Shown: positions 9,631 to 34,924 of the stretch, one piece after another
Position numbering within the stretch: position 1 is the first letter of the stretch
Layout: every line of letters starts with the position of its first letter
Assembly (NCBI RefSeq): GCF_006874625.1
Contig: NZ_CP030034.1
Location: 1,612,001 to 1,676,000, forward strand
Source: Bdellovibrio sp. NC01
GTDB lineage: Bacteria > Bdellovibrionota > Bdellovibrionia > Bdellovibrionales > Bdellovibrionaceae
DNA: 64,000 bases
Direction of reading: 5' to 3'
Position numbers and translations under genes: made by a program
Notes under the pieces: model-generated
Told to the model about the DNA's origin: nothing
The model's database searches: none
The model's input: the letters and a program-made list of their open reading frames with translations, nothing else

Positions 9631-10077
9631 TTAAGCCTTTTCAATCCTAACAACACGAGCGCAACCTTGGCAGATTTCTGTGATCGGCCAGTTCAACTCT
9701 TGTTTCTTGATGATCACTTGAGTGTGGCAGTGGGGGCATGTTGTTTCTCCACCCAAGACTTGTCCTTCGGCTTTGTAGCCTCTGCGTGCGAAGTAAAATC
9801 CTAAGAAGAAAAATAACGGCACAAGCACGAAATGGAAAACAGGAATCAAAACGCAAAGTAAAGCGATACCCCAAAAGATCGCAAGCTTCTTAATCGCAAC
9901 TTGAGTCTTCTGTGCAGGGTTGAAAAATTCGATGTAAGCAAAACCAGGGCTTTGTCTTTCATCACTGACATTCGCTAAGATTTCAATTTTTTGTCCATCC
10001 ATGGGCAGAGTGTGTTCCTCACAAATGTGACTGTCAAACTTCAGCTTAAGACCGCTTGCATCGAAACAATGTGTCAT
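9631..10077 (-). CDS. Two-helix membrane protein with C-terminal zinc ribbon
   Basis: A 148-residue protein of unrecognised family. An N-terminal soluble part of about 60 residues is followed by a hydrophobic stretch at about 66-96 (LAIFWGIALLCVLIPVFHFVLVP and beyond) that could form a helical hairpin. The C-terminal tail carries paired CPHC and CQGC motifs, a typical zinc ribbon. The arrangement suggests an inner-membrane protein with a cytoplasmic metal-stabilised tail. It ends next to the secreted-protein gene and lies 20 bases from the epimerase gene on the same strand, so it may be co-transcribed with it. Confidence 0.6.
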   Translation of the reverse strand: MTHCFDASGLKLKFDSHICEEHTLPMDGQKIEILANVSDERQSPGFAYIEFFNPAQKTQVAIKKLAIFWGIALLCVLIPVFHFVLVPLFFFLGFYFARRGYKAEGQVLGGETTCPHCHTQVIIKKQELNWPITEICQGCARVVRIEKA

Positions 10078-10096: not shown

Positions 10097-11257
10097 TTAA
10101 AGCTGTTCTGCCAGAATATTCAGAATTCTCTCGCACGCCTTGCCATCGCCAAATGGATTTTTCGCTTGGGACATTTTATTAAAGATCTCGGGCGTATCCA
10201 AGACTTCCACGGCTGTTCTATAGAAGGCTTTTTCTTCAAGAGGAATCAGGCGCGAAGTGCCGGCGTGAATTGCTTCCGGTCTTTCTGTTTTTTCCCGCGC
10301 AACTAAGATCGGCTTTCCTAGTGAGGGAGCTTCTTCCTGAACGCCGCCTGAATCTGTGATGATCATATGCGCGCGATTCATCAAATATACAAACGGCACA
10401 TAGTCGACCGGTTCACACAACCAGATTTTGCTTTGTCCCTCTTTAATATCCTGACCTTTATCAACCCAGCGAGCGGCTCCGCCGAAAACTTTTTCAGCGC
10501 TGGCACGCACTTGGGGATTCATGTGCAAAGGGATCAGCAGTTCGACGTCTTCGCGTTCTGATAAAGCGACAAGTCCTTTCATCACTTCTTCCATCGGTGT
10601 GCCGAAAGATTCGCGACGATGAACGGTGACGAGATTTAATTTTTTGCGCGGATTTAAAAACGAATAACGATGATCATACTCTTTCTTAAGGTTTGAATTT
10701 TCTAAGCGAGAGCTTACTTCAAATAAAGCATCAATGCCGGTGTTGCCAGTCACGTGAATGCATTCTTCAGGATAATGTTCGCGCACCAGATTGGCTTTTG
10801 ACGTTTCTGTCGGAGCAAAGTGAAACTTTGCAATCAGTCCCGTTGCTTTGCGATTGAACTCTTCAGGGTAAGGGGAGTAGATGTCGCCAGAGCGTAAGCC
10901 CGCCTCAATATGAATGACCGGAATGCGATGATAAAAAGAAACAAGGCTGCCAATAAAACAACTTGTCGTATCTCCTTGCACCACAACTCCGTCGACTTTG
11001 TTATTTGACAGGTAATCGTTCAGTCCCTTCATCACGCCGATTGATATGTCAGCCAAGCTTTGTCCAGGCTTCATCAAATCAAGATCGAAATCGGGAATGA
11101 TATCGAAAAAGTTTAGAAGAGGTTTAAGCATTTCACGATGTTGCCCGGTCGAGCCAACAACGACTTTGAAACGCTTGTCTCTGCGCGCTTGTAGGATAAA
11201 GGGTGCAAGTTTAACAGCTTCTGGACGAGTTCCAAACACAACAAGAATAGTTTTCAT
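10097..11257 (-). CDS. wecB: UDP-N-acetylglucosamine 2-epimerase (non-hydrolysing)
   Basis: Interconverts UDP-GlcNAc and UDP-ManNAc for surface-glycan synthesis. Family marks are VVFGTRPEAVKLAP at the N-terminus, HIEAGLRS followed by YSPYPEEFNR in the middle, and ITDSGGVQEEAPSLGKP at about 300-320. ATG 11257 gives 386 residues; an in-frame GTG two codons upstream is the alternative. It is the first polysaccharide gene of the region and stands apart from the other UDP-HexNAc genes by 14 kb. A second epimerase paralog of the WbpI type lies at 33.9-34.9 kb, so the two probably act on different substrates. Confidence 0.92.
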   Translation of the reverse strand: MKTILVVFGTRPEAVKLAPFILQARRDKRFKVVVGSTGQHREMLKPLLNFFDIIPDFDLDLMKPGQSLADISIGVMKGLNDYLSNNKVDGVVVQGDTTSCFIGSLVSFYHRIPVIHIEAGLRSGDIYSPYPEEFNRKATGLIAKFHFAPTETSKANLVREHYPEECIHVTGNTGIDALFEVSSRLENSNLKKEYDHRYSFLNPRKKLNLVTVHRRESFGTPMEEVMKGLVALSEREDVELLIPLHMNPQVRASAEKVFGGAARWVDKGQDIKEGQSKIWLCEPVDYVPFVYLMNRAHMIITDSGGVQEEAPSLGKPILVAREKTERPEAIHAGTSRLIPLEEKAFYRTAVEVLDTPEIFNKMSQAKNPFGDGKACERILNILAEQL

Positions 11258-11365
11258 GCACACACGTTATTGTTTGGAATTATTACTTGGCAACTTACAG
11301 AGGTTTAACTCATCAAACACCGACGACTCACTTACCGTTTTGTCTGCGGAATCGAGGTTGGAATA

Positions 11366-12157
11366 ATGTTCAGTACAAGCGTAAAAAGTCTAGCAGTTAT
11401 GGTTTTCCTAGGGATGAGTGTTCAGTCTTTTGCACAAGAAGGAACTTCAACGACATCTATTTGGTTAAATCCAAAAGCAAAATCATATAAAGAGCTGTAC
11501 TCAGAGAACAGTTATTACGAACAGTACAATCTCGTAACTGACACAAGGCTTCGTTATTACCAACCTTTATATATAGAAAATGTTTTAAGTCTTGATGCGT
11601 TTGCGGGAGCGGGCTTTCAATATCAATCCCCGAACGCTCAGCAAAAGTATTTTGATAACTCGGTAACACCTTATGTGGGAATGCGTGCCGGTGCTTTTCA
11701 AAAAATCTTTTTGCAATTTCAAGCTGGGGTGCGCGCCGTTTTAAACGATGAAAACTCGGGTCAAACAAATCGCAGCGCTGAGTGGGATCCACGTGTGATT
11801 TTAAGTGCTGGAGATTTCTGGCAGTGGCCAGTGGATAGTCATATCTTTACCGAAGGTTATGGCGAAGTGGCATACGTTCCTCGTCTTGATAGTACGCCTG
11901 TATCCACAGGATGGCTTAAACAAGGTTATCGCTTTAAGCCCATGGTGAGTGTCAACATCGACCCTTATGCGGAATTTTATTTACGAGAAAGTCGCAGCGC
12001 TGATCTTGGTCCTTCTATGAAGGAAGGGCGAGTGGGAGTGCGCACACAGTGGTTGCCGGGAAGCTGGAATTTAGCGGCACTCATTTATCATCCTATCAAT
12101 CGTACGGAAGCACACGGAGACATCGAAGGTCTTTTAGTCATCGGAGGACAGTTTTAA
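11366..12157 (+). CDS. Outer-membrane barrel protein, NfrA C-terminal-like
   Basis: A 263-residue exported protein. A signal peptide of about 23 residues (cleavage near SFA-QEG) is followed by alternating aromatic/hydrophobic strands ending in a terminal phenylalanine (VIGGQF), the usual C-terminus of an outer-membrane barrel. Its stop overlaps the start of an NfrB-like glycosyltransferase gene (TAATG), so the two are translationally coupled. In E. coli, NfrA (barrel plus TPR) and NfrB (synthase) form an exopolysaccharide export pair. This protein is about the size of NfrA's barrel domain alone, without TPRs. The export role is inferred mainly from that partnership. Confidence 0.6.
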   Translation: MFSTSVKSLAVMVFLGMSVQSFAQEGTSTTSIWLNPKAKSYKELYSENSYYEQYNLVTDTRLRYYQPLYIENVLSLDAFAGAGFQYQSPNAQQKYFDNSVTPYVGMRAGAFQKIFLQFQAGVRAVLNDENSGQTNRSAEWDPRVILSAGDFWQWPVDSHIFTEGYGEVAYVPRLDSTPVSTGWLKQGYRFKPMVSVNIDPYAEFYLRESRSADLGPSMKEGRVGVRTQWLPGSWNLAALIYHPINRTEAHGDIEGLLVIGGQF

Positions 12158-13572
12158 TGGATACATCATTCGGTCTTGAAGATCTTTTTGTTCTGTTCAC
12201 TGTCGCTGTGATTGTTGCGACGTGCATCTTTACGTTCGATGACTTGTTCATTGATGCCGTGGCATTTATTCGCAAATTAAAACCCAAAGTCATCAGTCAA
12301 GCTGTGCTCGCGCGTATGAAGCGGACACAGCAAAAGAAAATCGCCATCATGATCGCTAATTGGAAAGAGGCGGAAGTTCTAGGGCCCATGATTCGCGGAA
12401 ACATTCGTGGTCTTGATTATGATAATTACACATTCTTTTTAGGAGTTTATCCAAACGACACGGCCACTTGGGAGGAAGCAAGTAGACTTGAAAAGCTTTA
12501 TCCTCACAAGGTGGTCGTGATCGTAAACTCTTCGCCGGGGCCGACTTCAAAAGGTCAAATGCTAAATGAAATCGCTCGTCAGGTTTTGGCGTCGGAAGAG
12601 TCGATTCGTAATCGTTATGATTTGTTCTTGATGCAGGATTCGGAAGATGTGTTACATAAGCATTCTTTGACACTGATGAACTACTACTCTCATGAAGCTC
12701 ACTTCATTCAGATTCCGGTGTTTTCGTTTGATGTGCCGAAGACGTCATTAGTAGGTGGCGTTTACATTGATGAATTCAGTGAGGCGCATACAAAAGATTT
12801 GTTAGTCAGACAAGATCTGGGCGCGGCAATTCCTTCTGCTGGCGTGGGCACGTGCATGGCGCGCGAACTTGTGGTCGGCATGATGTTGCAGCAAGAGGGG
12901 CATTTCTTAAAAGAAGATACGCTGACTGAAGACTATCACCTTGGTGTGATGGCTAAACCCATGGGCTTTCGCAGTCAGTTTGTGTGCACTCAGATTGAAA
13001 ATGAAAAAGGGGAGCGCGAATTTATTGCGACTCGCGAATATTTTCCTGCGAAATTTATGGCGAGCGTTCGTCAGAAGTCGCGATGGACTCTGGGGATTGC
13101 TTATCAAGGAACTGAAAATATTCAGTGGAGTGGCAGTCTGGTTGATCGCTATTTCCTCTTGCGTGATCGCAAGGGGCCGATGTGCAGTGTTCTTGTCGTC
13201 CTTGCGACGATTTTATTTTTAAGTTTTGTGATGATCCATGCGCTGGGATGGGCAACTCCAAAAGCGTTCTCTCATCCTCTTATTCAAGCCTTGGTTGCAG
13301 TGAATATATTAGGTATGACCGTGCGTCTGTTGCAAAGAATGCTCGCGGTCAGACGCGTGAATGGTTGGTCGCAAAGTGCGATGGTGCCGCTGCGTTGGCT
13401 TGTTGCGAATTTGATTAATGTCATGGCTTCTTATCGTGCTTATACGACCTACAAAGAAAGCCAACGAACAGGTACGCGCCCGGTGTGGGTGAAAACAGAT
13501 CATACTCTGCCAGCGCATTTTGGTGCGCCGGAAGCGGTTGACCCCGTCGTCGTGGAGGCACAATCCCAATGA
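12157..13572 (+). CDS. NfrB-like membrane glycosyltransferase (GT2)
   Basis: A 471-residue processive-type glycosyltransferase. The first helix is at about residues 8-27. The catalytic domain carries DSED (161-164) for UDP-sugar/metal binding, TED (257-259) as the likely base, and RQKSRW (305-310), a QxxRW-type motif. Hydrophobic segments lie at about 343-362 and 375-395, and the C-terminal WVKTDHTLP is typical of NfrB-type proteins. E. coli NfrB has an extra C-terminal cyclic-di-GMP-binding MshEN domain, which is absent here. The open frame extends upstream to 12049, but the ATG overlapping the preceding stop is the natural start. The polymer made is unknown. Confidence 0.8.
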   Translation: MDTSFGLEDLFVLFTVAVIVATCIFTFDDLFIDAVAFIRKLKPKVISQAVLARMKRTQQKKIAIMIANWKEAEVLGPMIRGNIRGLDYDNYTFFLGVYPNDTATWEEASRLEKLYPHKVVVIVNSSPGPTSKGQMLNEIARQVLASEESIRNRYDLFLMQDSEDVLHKHSLTLMNYYSHEAHFIQIPVFSFDVPKTSLVGGVYIDEFSEAHTKDLLVRQDLGAAIPSAGVGTCMARELVVGMMLQQEGHFLKEDTLTEDYHLGVMAKPMGFRSQFVCTQIENEKGEREFIATREYFPAKFMASVRQKSRWTLGIAYQGTENIQWSGSLVDRYFLLRDRKGPMCSVLVVLATILFLSFVMIHALGWATPKAFSHPLIQALVAVNILGMTVRLLQRMLAVRRVNGWSQSAMVPLRWLVANLINVMASYRAYTTYKESQRTGTRPVWVKTDHTLPAHFGAPEAVDPVVVEAQSQ

Positions 13573-14273
13573 GATCTCCCTACTACTTTATTTTTGCGAT
13601 AGCCTTTTGTGCGCTTGCTGGTGTGTTGAAGTTTGGATTTAACTCTGCACCCTTAGAAAAGTGCATTCAGATATTTCACGACTCGAAAAAAGAAGCTCGA
13701 GGCGTGCAGAAATATCTGCGTGGCTTTCCTGAATACAGTCAGTACGTAAAAGATATCGGCGATTATCACAAAGGTGACATGGATAAGTGCCAGGTTAACT
13801 TTTATGTGGGCGCTAAGGACGAAACCTTCGTGCCGCGCGAATTTCGGGAAGATTATTTGCGAACGTCTACGAGTGTTGCGTGGTTAGGAAATAATATCTG
13901 GCAATTAGGTGATCAATTAGAGCGGGTGTTTGGTTTGCGCTTTTTGGGCGTGGGGCTTGTCAAAGGTAACTTACAAAGTGAAGTGTATTATAAGGGACAA
14001 AGTTTTAAGACACGTTCTTTAGAGCATCGCCGTGTCGAGTTGTTGCCAGTGAATTCTGAAAAATTCGAGATCTTGGCAGAAATTCGTAGCGACTCTTCAC
14101 GGGAAATTTTGCCCTACGCGGTTCGTGCGAAGAATCGCTATTACTTCGCGGGAACTCCGGCCGATCTTGCGGCTTACGCAGAATACGCGCCGCTATTTAA
14201 CGATATTTTGGCCGAGATGACGGGGGTGCCACCGCACGACAGGGCCAGAAGTGTATCTGGACTTACGCACTAG
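13569..14273 (+). CDS. Membrane-anchored protein of unknown function in the NfrB-like cassette
   Basis: A 234-residue protein that overlaps the end of the NfrB-like gene by four bases (ATGA). The N-terminus (PYYFIFAIAFCALAGVLKF) is an uncleaved signal anchor or signal peptide, so the rest is periplasmic. The region around residues 175-215 (LPYAVRAKNRYYFAGTP, then YAPLFNDILAEM) resembles the segment that precedes the catalytic part in DUF2334-type polysaccharide deacetylases, but no deacetylase motifs follow. That resemblance is from memory and weak. Its position as third gene of a coupled cassette suggests a role in modifying or exporting the same polymer. Confidence 0.55.
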   Translation: MRSPYYFIFAIAFCALAGVLKFGFNSAPLEKCIQIFHDSKKEARGVQKYLRGFPEYSQYVKDIGDYHKGDMDKCQVNFYVGAKDETFVPREFREDYLRTSTSVAWLGNNIWQLGDQLERVFGLRFLGVGLVKGNLQSEVYYKGQSFKTRSLEHRRVELLPVNSEKFEILAEIRSDSSREILPYAVRAKNRYYFAGTPADLAAYAEYAPLFNDILAEMTGVPPHDRARSVSGLTH

Positions 14274-14311: not shown

Positions 14312-14623
14312 ATGCCTTCATTAGACTCAGACAAATATTTTATCCGCGACAGTATGTACAACCTTGTTGAGCTTTCTTTGCTCGCACGCTTTTACGAAGA
14401 GTTCTGCGTGCCATCTGCAACATCGGGTTCATTGAACAAAGAATCTTTATCGCACACACTTTTAAAAATGAAAGCGACAGAAGGCAAAGGCCAATTACGT
14501 GTTGCCATTCATGGTACCGATCCGGTGGGTTTTCACTGGGTTTATGATGGGAAGGTGATGGCGACGTGGGTGATGCCGGAGCACCGCGGGCAGGGTGTGG
14601 AAGAGCGTTTGGCTGGGCACTAA
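14312..14623 (+). pseudogene. Truncated GNAT-family acetyltransferase
   Basis: The 103-residue frame reads like the N-terminal two thirds of a GNAT N-acetyltransferase. It ends within the acetyl-CoA-binding motif A (ATWVMPEHRGQGVEERL), then reaches a stop only three codons later. The C-terminal helix and strands that complete the fold are missing, and no continuation was found in another frame in the 64 bases before the next gene. It is most likely a decayed fragment, though a minimal GNAT-like protein cannot be excluded. The ribosome-binding site is weak. Confidence 0.5.
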
Positions 14624-33859: not shown

Positions 33860-34924
33860 TTATTTTTGATGACCTAACAACTCTCTAACAATTTTTTCGC
33901 CAGCAAGTCCATCGCCGTAAAGCGAGGGAAAGTTTTGCGGTTTGATTCTATTTTTCATTTCGTTAAATACGCTCAGCATTTTATCTACGTTGCTTCCAAC
34001 TAGTGAGTTAGTTCCTGATGAGATAAGCTCAACCCATTCGGTTTCATCTCTCAAAGTAATGCATTGCTTTTTGAAAAAGTATGCTTCTTTTTGTAAGCCA
34101 CCGCTATCGGTGACCACAAGTTGGCATTCTTTTAAATAAGAAATCATTTCAAAGTAACTCGCGGGAGGAATAATATCTATTCCTGTCGTGGAAATATTTA
34201 AGGTTTCCACAATTTTTTTCGTTCTTGGATGTAAAGGTAAAATGATTTTTGTACTCTTCGCTATCTCAGTCAATCCTCGGAAGATGTTTTTTAAGCGTTG
34301 CTCGTCGTCAGTATTTTCTGCTCTATGAATTGTCGCTAGGACAAACGATTCTTTTGGAGTAATATCAGGAGCCATTTTTGAGTAAAAGATAGCGGCATCT
34401 AACATCACATCGCCTACATTAATAGTTTTTGAATTGATGTTATCGTAGCCCTCATTTTTGAGATTTTTGATGGCGGTTTCTGTCGGGCAAAAAAGAATAT
34501 TTGAGATGCGATCTGTTAGAATGCGGTTGATTTCTTCTGGCATTGCCATATTGAAACTGCGCAATCCCGCTTCGACATGTGCAATTTTAATATGGAGTTT
34601 GCATGCGGCTAGAGCTCCGGCTAGAGTTGAGTTTGTATCGCCGTATACCAAAACCCAGTCTGGTTTTTCCTTTATCAAAACTTCTTCAATGCCTTTAAGC
34701 ATTTCACCTGTCATCGCTCCGTGACTAAGGCCCGAAATTCCTAAGTTATACTTTGGCTTTGGAATTTTCATTTCTTCAAAGAAGACGTCACTCATATTGG
34801 CATCGTAATGTTGACCAGTGTGAATGATAATTTCTTCGATTTGATTGTGTTTTAAAAATGCGCGGCTAACGACCGCCGCCTTAATAAATTGTGGCCGAGC
34901 GCCGACAACGGTTACAATTTTCAT
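33860..34924 (-). CDS. wbpI: UDP-GlcNAc3NAcA 2-epimerase, WbpI-type
   Basis: A 354-residue non-hydrolysing UDP-sugar 2-epimerase. The WbpI signature is clear: VVGARPQFIKAAVVSRAF, IIHTGQHYDANMSDVFFEE, HVEAGLRSFNMAMPEEINR and LTDRISNILFCPTETA. This differs from the WecB form encoded at 10.1-11.3 kb. It converts UDP-GlcNAc3NAcA to UDP-ManNAc3NAcA, the last step of the pathway begun by the WbpA/B/D-type genes. Its ATG overlaps the stop of the preceding glycosyltransferase gene (ATGA), and the methyltransferase gene follows after one base. Confidence 0.9.
   Translation of the reverse strand: MKIVTVVGARPQFIKAAVVSRAFLKHNQIEEIIIHTGQHYDANMSDVFFEEMKIPKPKYNLGISGLSHGAMTGEMLKGIEEVLIKEKPDWVLVYGDTNSTLAGALAACKLHIKIAHVEAGLRSFNMAMPEEINRILTDRISNILFCPTETAIKNLKNEGYDNINSKTINVGDVMLDAAIFYSKMAPDITPKESFVLATIHRAENTDDEQRLKNIFRGLTEIAKSTKIILPLHPRTKKIVETLNISTTGIDIIPPASYFEMISYLKECQLVVTDSGGLQKEAYFFKKQCITLRDETEWVELISSGTNSLVGSNVDKMLSVFNEMKNRIKPQNFPSLYGDGLAGEKIVRELLGHQK

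Follow-up and report, generated by a model that had tools for sequence, protein, structure and literature searches.

The question raised by this locus is what an outer-membrane barrel, a glycosyltransferase and a small anchored protein, encoded by three overlapping genes, could build together in Bdellovibrio. The window (the whole stretch of 64,000 nucleotides that was analysed) belongs to the single-contig, 3.98-Mb genome of Bdellovibrio sp. NC01. A preliminary description saw in these genes a reduced NfrA-NfrB exporter that had gained an extra subunit and lost its regulatory and scaffold domains. The barrel, the synthase and the exporter held up under analysis, but the extra subunit and the domain losses did not. 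We consider it likely that the locus is a compact Nfr-type synthase-dependent exopolysaccharide system, with a polymer that is probably ManNAc-based, and without dedicated deacetylation or MshEN-type control. The genes in and around the cassette are as follows.

9631-10077, minus strand: 148-aa protein, a conserved flank marker by synteny
10097-11263, minus strand: wecB, non-hydrolysing UDP-GlcNAc 2-epimerase (TIGR00236), divergent from the cassette
11366-12157, plus strand: gene 1, barrel, 263 aa, no TPR scaffold
12157-13572, plus strand: gene 2, synthase, 471 aa, start ATG at 12157
13569-14273, plus strand: gene 3, anchored protein, 234 aa
14312-14623, plus strand: small conserved flanking gene, 103 aa, syntenic in loci L022-L027 and L123-L128

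The positions of the three genes and their overlaps agree with the preliminary description: barrel and synthase share 1 base (TAATG), synthase and gene 3 share 4 (ATGA), and every cassette frame in the window is intact. The coordinates of that description leave out the adjacent wecB (10097-11263). A promoter scan returned fewer sites than in shuffled sequences and gave nothing decisive. The two outer genes probably lie outside the system: the product of 14312-14623 shows a marginal acetyltransferase match (NF007807, E 0.012, far under the cut-off) and its gene marks the ancestral site, and the product of 9631-10077 shows a weak MJ0042 zinc-finger match, also under the cut-off.

Direct scans of the barrel protein gave no Pfam or NCBIfam match, TPR families included, and a PDB sequence search with it returned no match. 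An AlphaFold2 model built on 16 sequences (the models of genes 1 and 3 were built on 13-16) predicts 12 strands that span residues 41-261 (mean pLDDT 79); judged by eye, residues 1-23 or so are likely to be a signal peptide. Foldseek and VIA match this model to outer-membrane barrels, with a top VIA Z of 14.2. The first protein is a predicted outer-membrane barrel without TPRs, as had been proposed. A single-step hhalign comparison of the barrel-family profile with the single E. coli NfrA found no match. When the profile was iterated over 2977 ORFs from 80 synthase loci, it drew in 48 proteins and reached E. coli NfrA residues 820-952 (E 1.1e-5) before NfrA had joined the profile. The match falls within the NfrA_C domain (809-977); in a control with 200 shuffled NfrA barrels, not one scored against the iterated profile. 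This link needed intermediates from other bacteria, among them Legionella and alphaproteobacterial loci, and 43 of the 47 family members besides E. coli NfrA sit at most 500 bp from a synthase. Since the iterated profile reaches NfrA_C, we conclude that the barrel protein and the NfrA barrel are homologous, the TPR part of NfrA being absent here.

The synthase is a GT2 glycosyltransferase (PF13641, E 9e-40 in a Pfam scan). It scores below the cut-offs of both the NCBIfam NfrB equivalog NF008411 (340 bits, cut-off 1170) and PRK14716.1-3 (NF011305; 396 bits, cut-off 409), and a PDB sequence search with it found no match. With hhalign it aligns to E. coli NfrB residues 22-484 (E 1e-80, 36% identity), an alignment by which the two proteins are homologous, and the compact NfrA-NfrB-type exporter proposed earlier is supported. 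The DxD, TED and QxxRW motifs (D161/D164, E258-D259 and Q306-R309-W310) are invariant across 16 synthase relatives. No MshEN domain (PF05157) was found in Pfam and NCBIfam scans, and NfrB was positive in the same kind of scan; the alignment of the 471-aa synthase stops at residue 484 of the 745 of NfrB. The synthase is therefore NfrB-like and lacks MshEN, as first described.

Whether these features amount to losses is a separate matter. In a published survey, MshEN was present in 1,705 of 1,841 NfrB homologues (PMC8669469). The NfrB-like synthases of the Bdellovibrionota and rhizobial loci that we surveyed are without MshEN, and two NCBIfam PRK14716 models of 442-486 positions fit the length range of such proteins. 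NfrB-like synthases without MshEN are widespread, and common in the Bdellovibrionota group, and the barrel encoded in Bdellovibrionota loci usually has about 240-300 aa and no TPRs. The idea that this cassette had lost MshEN and a scaffold is therefore not upheld.

Gene 3 had been read as an extra subunit with a weak resemblance to the flank of a deacetylase. This resemblance turned out to be clear homology: with phmmer, nearly the full length of the protein aligns to the first ~255 residues of ~600-aa DUF2334 proteins encoded at the same locus in relatives (best E 2e-42, with the L030 protein). In these relatives DUF2334 (PF10096, E 7e-35 to 8e-38) lies C-terminal to the gene-3-like region and carries, on inspection of the alignment, a D motif (RIED) and an H-x-x-x-H motif (HGVTHQ-type) that are CE4-type-like. 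Gene 3 has no PF10096 match and its product ends ahead of the RIED motif, so the metal motifs are absent. No significant remnant of the catalytic domain lies downstream of gene 3 (best tblastn E 0.5), and no DUF2334 protein scores above the cut-off elsewhere in the genome; a sub-threshold match at genome position 2242302 looks, on inspection, like an ordinary NodB-like deacetylase. By this homology, gene 3 is the retained N-terminal domain of a DUF2334 CE4-like deacetylase, which takes the place of the extra-subunit reading.

Profile scans gave little further information on gene 3, with no Pfam match up to E 5, CBM87 included, and no NCBIfam match. Its AlphaFold2 model (pLDDT 82) combines an N-terminal membrane helix (residues 5-21) with an alpha/beta domain of GATase1-like fold. 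VIA ranks Agd3 first (6nwz; Z 15.5, rmsd 2.9, 193 residues), with PelA (9cgy) at Z 13.3 and ThuA- and GATase-like folds at Z 12-14. Since GATases and ThuA-like proteins score nearly as high, the fold alone is not CBM87-specific. PDB sequence searches with gene 3 or its profile gave no convincing match, and none to Agd3; in the predicted model, the resemblance to CBM87 is by fold only. The Agd3 N-terminal domain, the founding CBM87, was shown experimentally to bind its polysaccharide and is without the GATase triad (PMC7229062). From the fold, we infer that the gene-3 product is an anchored polysaccharide-binding domain. Two tryptophans, W105 and W111, are invariant in the gene-3 family. Its profile was also compared with YbcH, with a negative result, and gene 3 was rejected as a YbcH homologue.

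We then asked how constant the association of these genes is. At 22 of the 30 synthase places in the class, a gene-3 relative is the immediate neighbour of the synthase, and the barrel adjoins the synthase in most loci read, an arrangement that exceeds chance; the three genes are kept together in other genomes. Co-occurrence was counted in 144 genomes of the class, 27 with the synthase and 117 without. The gene-3 family is present in 26 of the 27 against 3 of the 117 (Fisher P 3e-24), and a GH113-like hydrolase in 19 of the 27 against 4 of the 117 (P 6e-14), with P values that treat genomes as independent, which species are not. The GH113-like gene of this genome is unlinked to the cassette (L136 6112-7503, minus strand; genome about 1496111-1497502; Pfam E 8e-17), and encodes a predicted secreted hydrolase related to beta-1,4-mannanases. 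As a YbcH counterpart it was not supported (profile probability 3% against YbcH). A further gene, encoding a conserved protein of ~560-590 aa with no Pfam family above cut-off, accompanies full-length DUF2334 deacetylases or occurs at the relic loci of genomes G006 and G016; the genome of the window lacks it. Examples of this ~580-aa partner gene are listed here.

L129 9865-11634: partner protein
L123 4251-5942: partner protein
L128 5482-7203: partner protein

The truncation of the deacetylase can be placed on two unrooted trees. Two changes, the minimum possible, are enough to account for the full-length, binding-domain-only and absent states when these are mapped on the synthase tree. On the binding-domain tree, 13 of 13 stand-alone copies fall on one side of a branch (support 99/97, all bootstraps). 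A single loss of the catalytic domain within Bdellovibrio suffices to explain both trees; the direction of change is taken from other families of the order, where the full form occurs. From these phylogenies, the catalytic half was probably lost once, in one Bdellovibrio clade. Three genomes (G011, G021 and G022) hold two systems each, and in just one of the two is the deacetylase catalytic domain present.

L024 and L038: the two copies in G022
L025 and L037: the two copies in G011
L026 and L039: the two copies in G021

Reduction went further at the ancestral, pst-linked site, where gene-3 relatives stand alone in six genomes. The domain is all that is left in G002, G005, G015 and G023; in G016 it is accompanied by the ~580-aa partner gene, and in G006 by that gene as well as a remnant of the synthase (252 aa, motifs degenerate). 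Neither an intact synthase nor a barrel was found anywhere in the genomes G005 (L124), G006 and G015 (L125). G002 and G023 have wecB, barrel and synthase elsewhere without gene 3, and the gene-3 relative remains at the pst site.

L123 6757-7515, minus strand: synthase remnant, 252 aa, open frame, then the binding domain and the ~580-aa partner gene
L124 7513-8253: orphan gene-3 relative at the pst site, no synthase or barrel beside it
L125 6481-7227: orphan, same setting
L126 7043-7783: orphan, same setting
L127 6708-7487: orphan, same setting
L128 7200-7961: orphan, same setting

These orphans speak for another reading, in which gene 3 has been repurposed for a polymer-independent role (for example, cell-wall or prey glycan binding) and stands beside the synthase in this clade by chance. 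The retention of the domain in three genomes without an intact synthase or barrel suggests that gene 3 may have another job. The orphan on the G005 branch, the only lineage tested, accumulated 20 synonymous against 4 non-synonymous codon changes, which indicates purifying selection. However, at seven loci gene 3 and the synthase still overlap in a compact operon, the gene-3 family accompanies the synthase in 26 of 27 genomes, and the orphan copies could be recent leftovers of lost systems. We regard this reading as unlikely. A sequence of both roles, in which the polysaccharide-binding domain, freed when the deacetylase lost its catalytic half, became a stand-alone anchored protein, was maintained by purifying selection as a synthase partner and was later maintained alone for a new role in lineages that had lost the synthase, is possible but rather doubtful.

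The preferred reading, an Nfr-type exporter with a ManNAc-based polymer, depends for its sugar on wecB. The gene at 10097-11263 scores 413 bits with TIGR00236 (cut-off 210), its orthologues are linked to the synthase in relatives by synteny, and it probably belongs to the system. Nfr systems are reported to show such a partnership (PMC8669469, PMC8669472). A different polymer, such as one of GlcNAc, with wecB serving LPS, seems quite improbable to us. The sequence of the synthase does not reveal its sugar specificity, and a second wecB homologue (33860-34924 of the window, minus strand, 322 bits) means that UDP-ManNAc supply need not be dedicated. This second wecB sits in a large region of sugar/LPS-like genes that starts at about 14.7 kb. 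Against the GlcNAc alternative, wecB at a level of at least 340 bits, a threshold picked after the scores were seen, occurs in 27 of 27 synthase genomes, also where it is unlinked, compared with 13 of the 117 others, and published Nfr genetics links NfrB to WecB (PMC8669472).

Selection on the cassette was estimated from dN/dS, which is well below 1 for all three cassette genes in those pairs with an estimable dS. To the nearest relative (L022) the synthase has a ratio of 0.11 and gene 3 one of 0.17, with dS of barrel and wecB saturated in that pair, and the barrel has 0.06 in L024/L025 and L024/L026; several dS values are high and the ratios are rough. That the whole locus is decaying, a relic en route to loss that makes no polymer, is very unlikely: the stepwise reduction of this site in the genus, in which wecB, synthase and barrel went after the catalytic domain and the partner gene, and the degenerate synthase remnant of G006 would fit it, but in the window the frames are intact, the catalytic motifs are invariant and both ratios to the nearest relative are low. 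Judged by its sequence, the cassette looks functional.

We infer the enzymatic activities, the sugar, chain binding and hand-over, and the lack of deacetylation and of direct c-di-GMP control as parts of one mechanism. WecB would make UDP-ManNAc, a step suggested by the WecB association and by published Nfr genetics. The NfrB-like synthase would polymerise an aminosugar chain, probably ManNAc-based, and move it across the inner membrane; being without MshEN, it shows no sign of direct c-di-GMP control. The anchored CBM87-like protein may hold the growing chain on the periplasmic side and aid its hand-over, as its fold and position suggest, and the 12-strand NfrA_C-type barrel would release the chain. 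The ancestral anchored protein would have been a two-domain deacetylase, with a binding domain and a DUF2334 catalytic domain, of which this Bdellovibrio clade dropped the catalytic half together with the co-occurring ~580-aa partner gene. With this half lost, the polymer should be without this dedicated deacetylation; the NodB-like deacetylase elsewhere in the genome might substitute for it, and the unlinked GH113-like hydrolase may trim the polymer.

The cassette ties the E. coli N4 glycan receptor (NGR) pathway, known mainly as the receptor of phage N4, to a wider family, whose Bdellovibrionota version includes a DUF2334 deacetylase and, in many cases, a GH113-like hydrolase. This association leads us to predict that deacetylation can occur on Nfr-type polymers, and it offers a role that can be tested for DUF2334, a domain mentioned in a single paper of the literature searched. 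The successive reductions at a single chromosomal site are a natural experiment in what a synthase-dependent machine can do without, and they show the non-catalytic binding domain to be the most persistent part.

No published account of this gene combination was found in the literature searched, and one may exist elsewhere. The PgaABCD system, which is responsible for PNAG, couples synthase-dependent export to an outer-membrane barrel and a deacetylase. It resembles the cassette in general plan, and we claim no sequence relation. Similar in fold to gene 3 are Agd3 of Aspergillus fumigatus (CBM87-CE18; PMC7229062), whose N-terminal domain (141-364) shares the GATase1-like alpha/beta fold of gene 3, and PelA (PMC12022489), whose alpha/beta domain shares it as well. 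The full-length relatives of gene 3 have an Agd3/PelA-like domain order, a binding-type domain before a CE4-like catalytic domain. Gene 3 itself differs from both in being anchored, without a catalytic domain and partnered by an NfrB-type synthase, and its sequence gave no match to Agd3.

The nearest known system is E. coli NfrB-NfrA-YbcH (NGR) with WecB. It shares with the cassette a homologous GT2 synthase with the same motifs, a homologous C-terminal barrel and, by linkage and co-occurrence, the partnership with wecB. In contrast to NGR, the cassette has a synthase without the MshEN c-di-GMP domain, a barrel without the TPR scaffold, the order barrel-synthase, a deacetylase-derived domain in the operon and a GH113-like hydrolase elsewhere in the genome. 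YbcH (DUF4434) had no match in the Bdellovibrionota loci, the scope of that search. We therefore file the cassette as an Nfr/NGR variant, homologous to NGR and predicted to work in a similar way, but without MshEN, TPR and, in the loci searched, YbcH. A Nitrosomonas contig (L108 1091-11829) carries a DUF2334-type deacetylase, wecB, an NfrB-like synthase, a full-length NfrA and YbcH together, and bridges both forms of the system.
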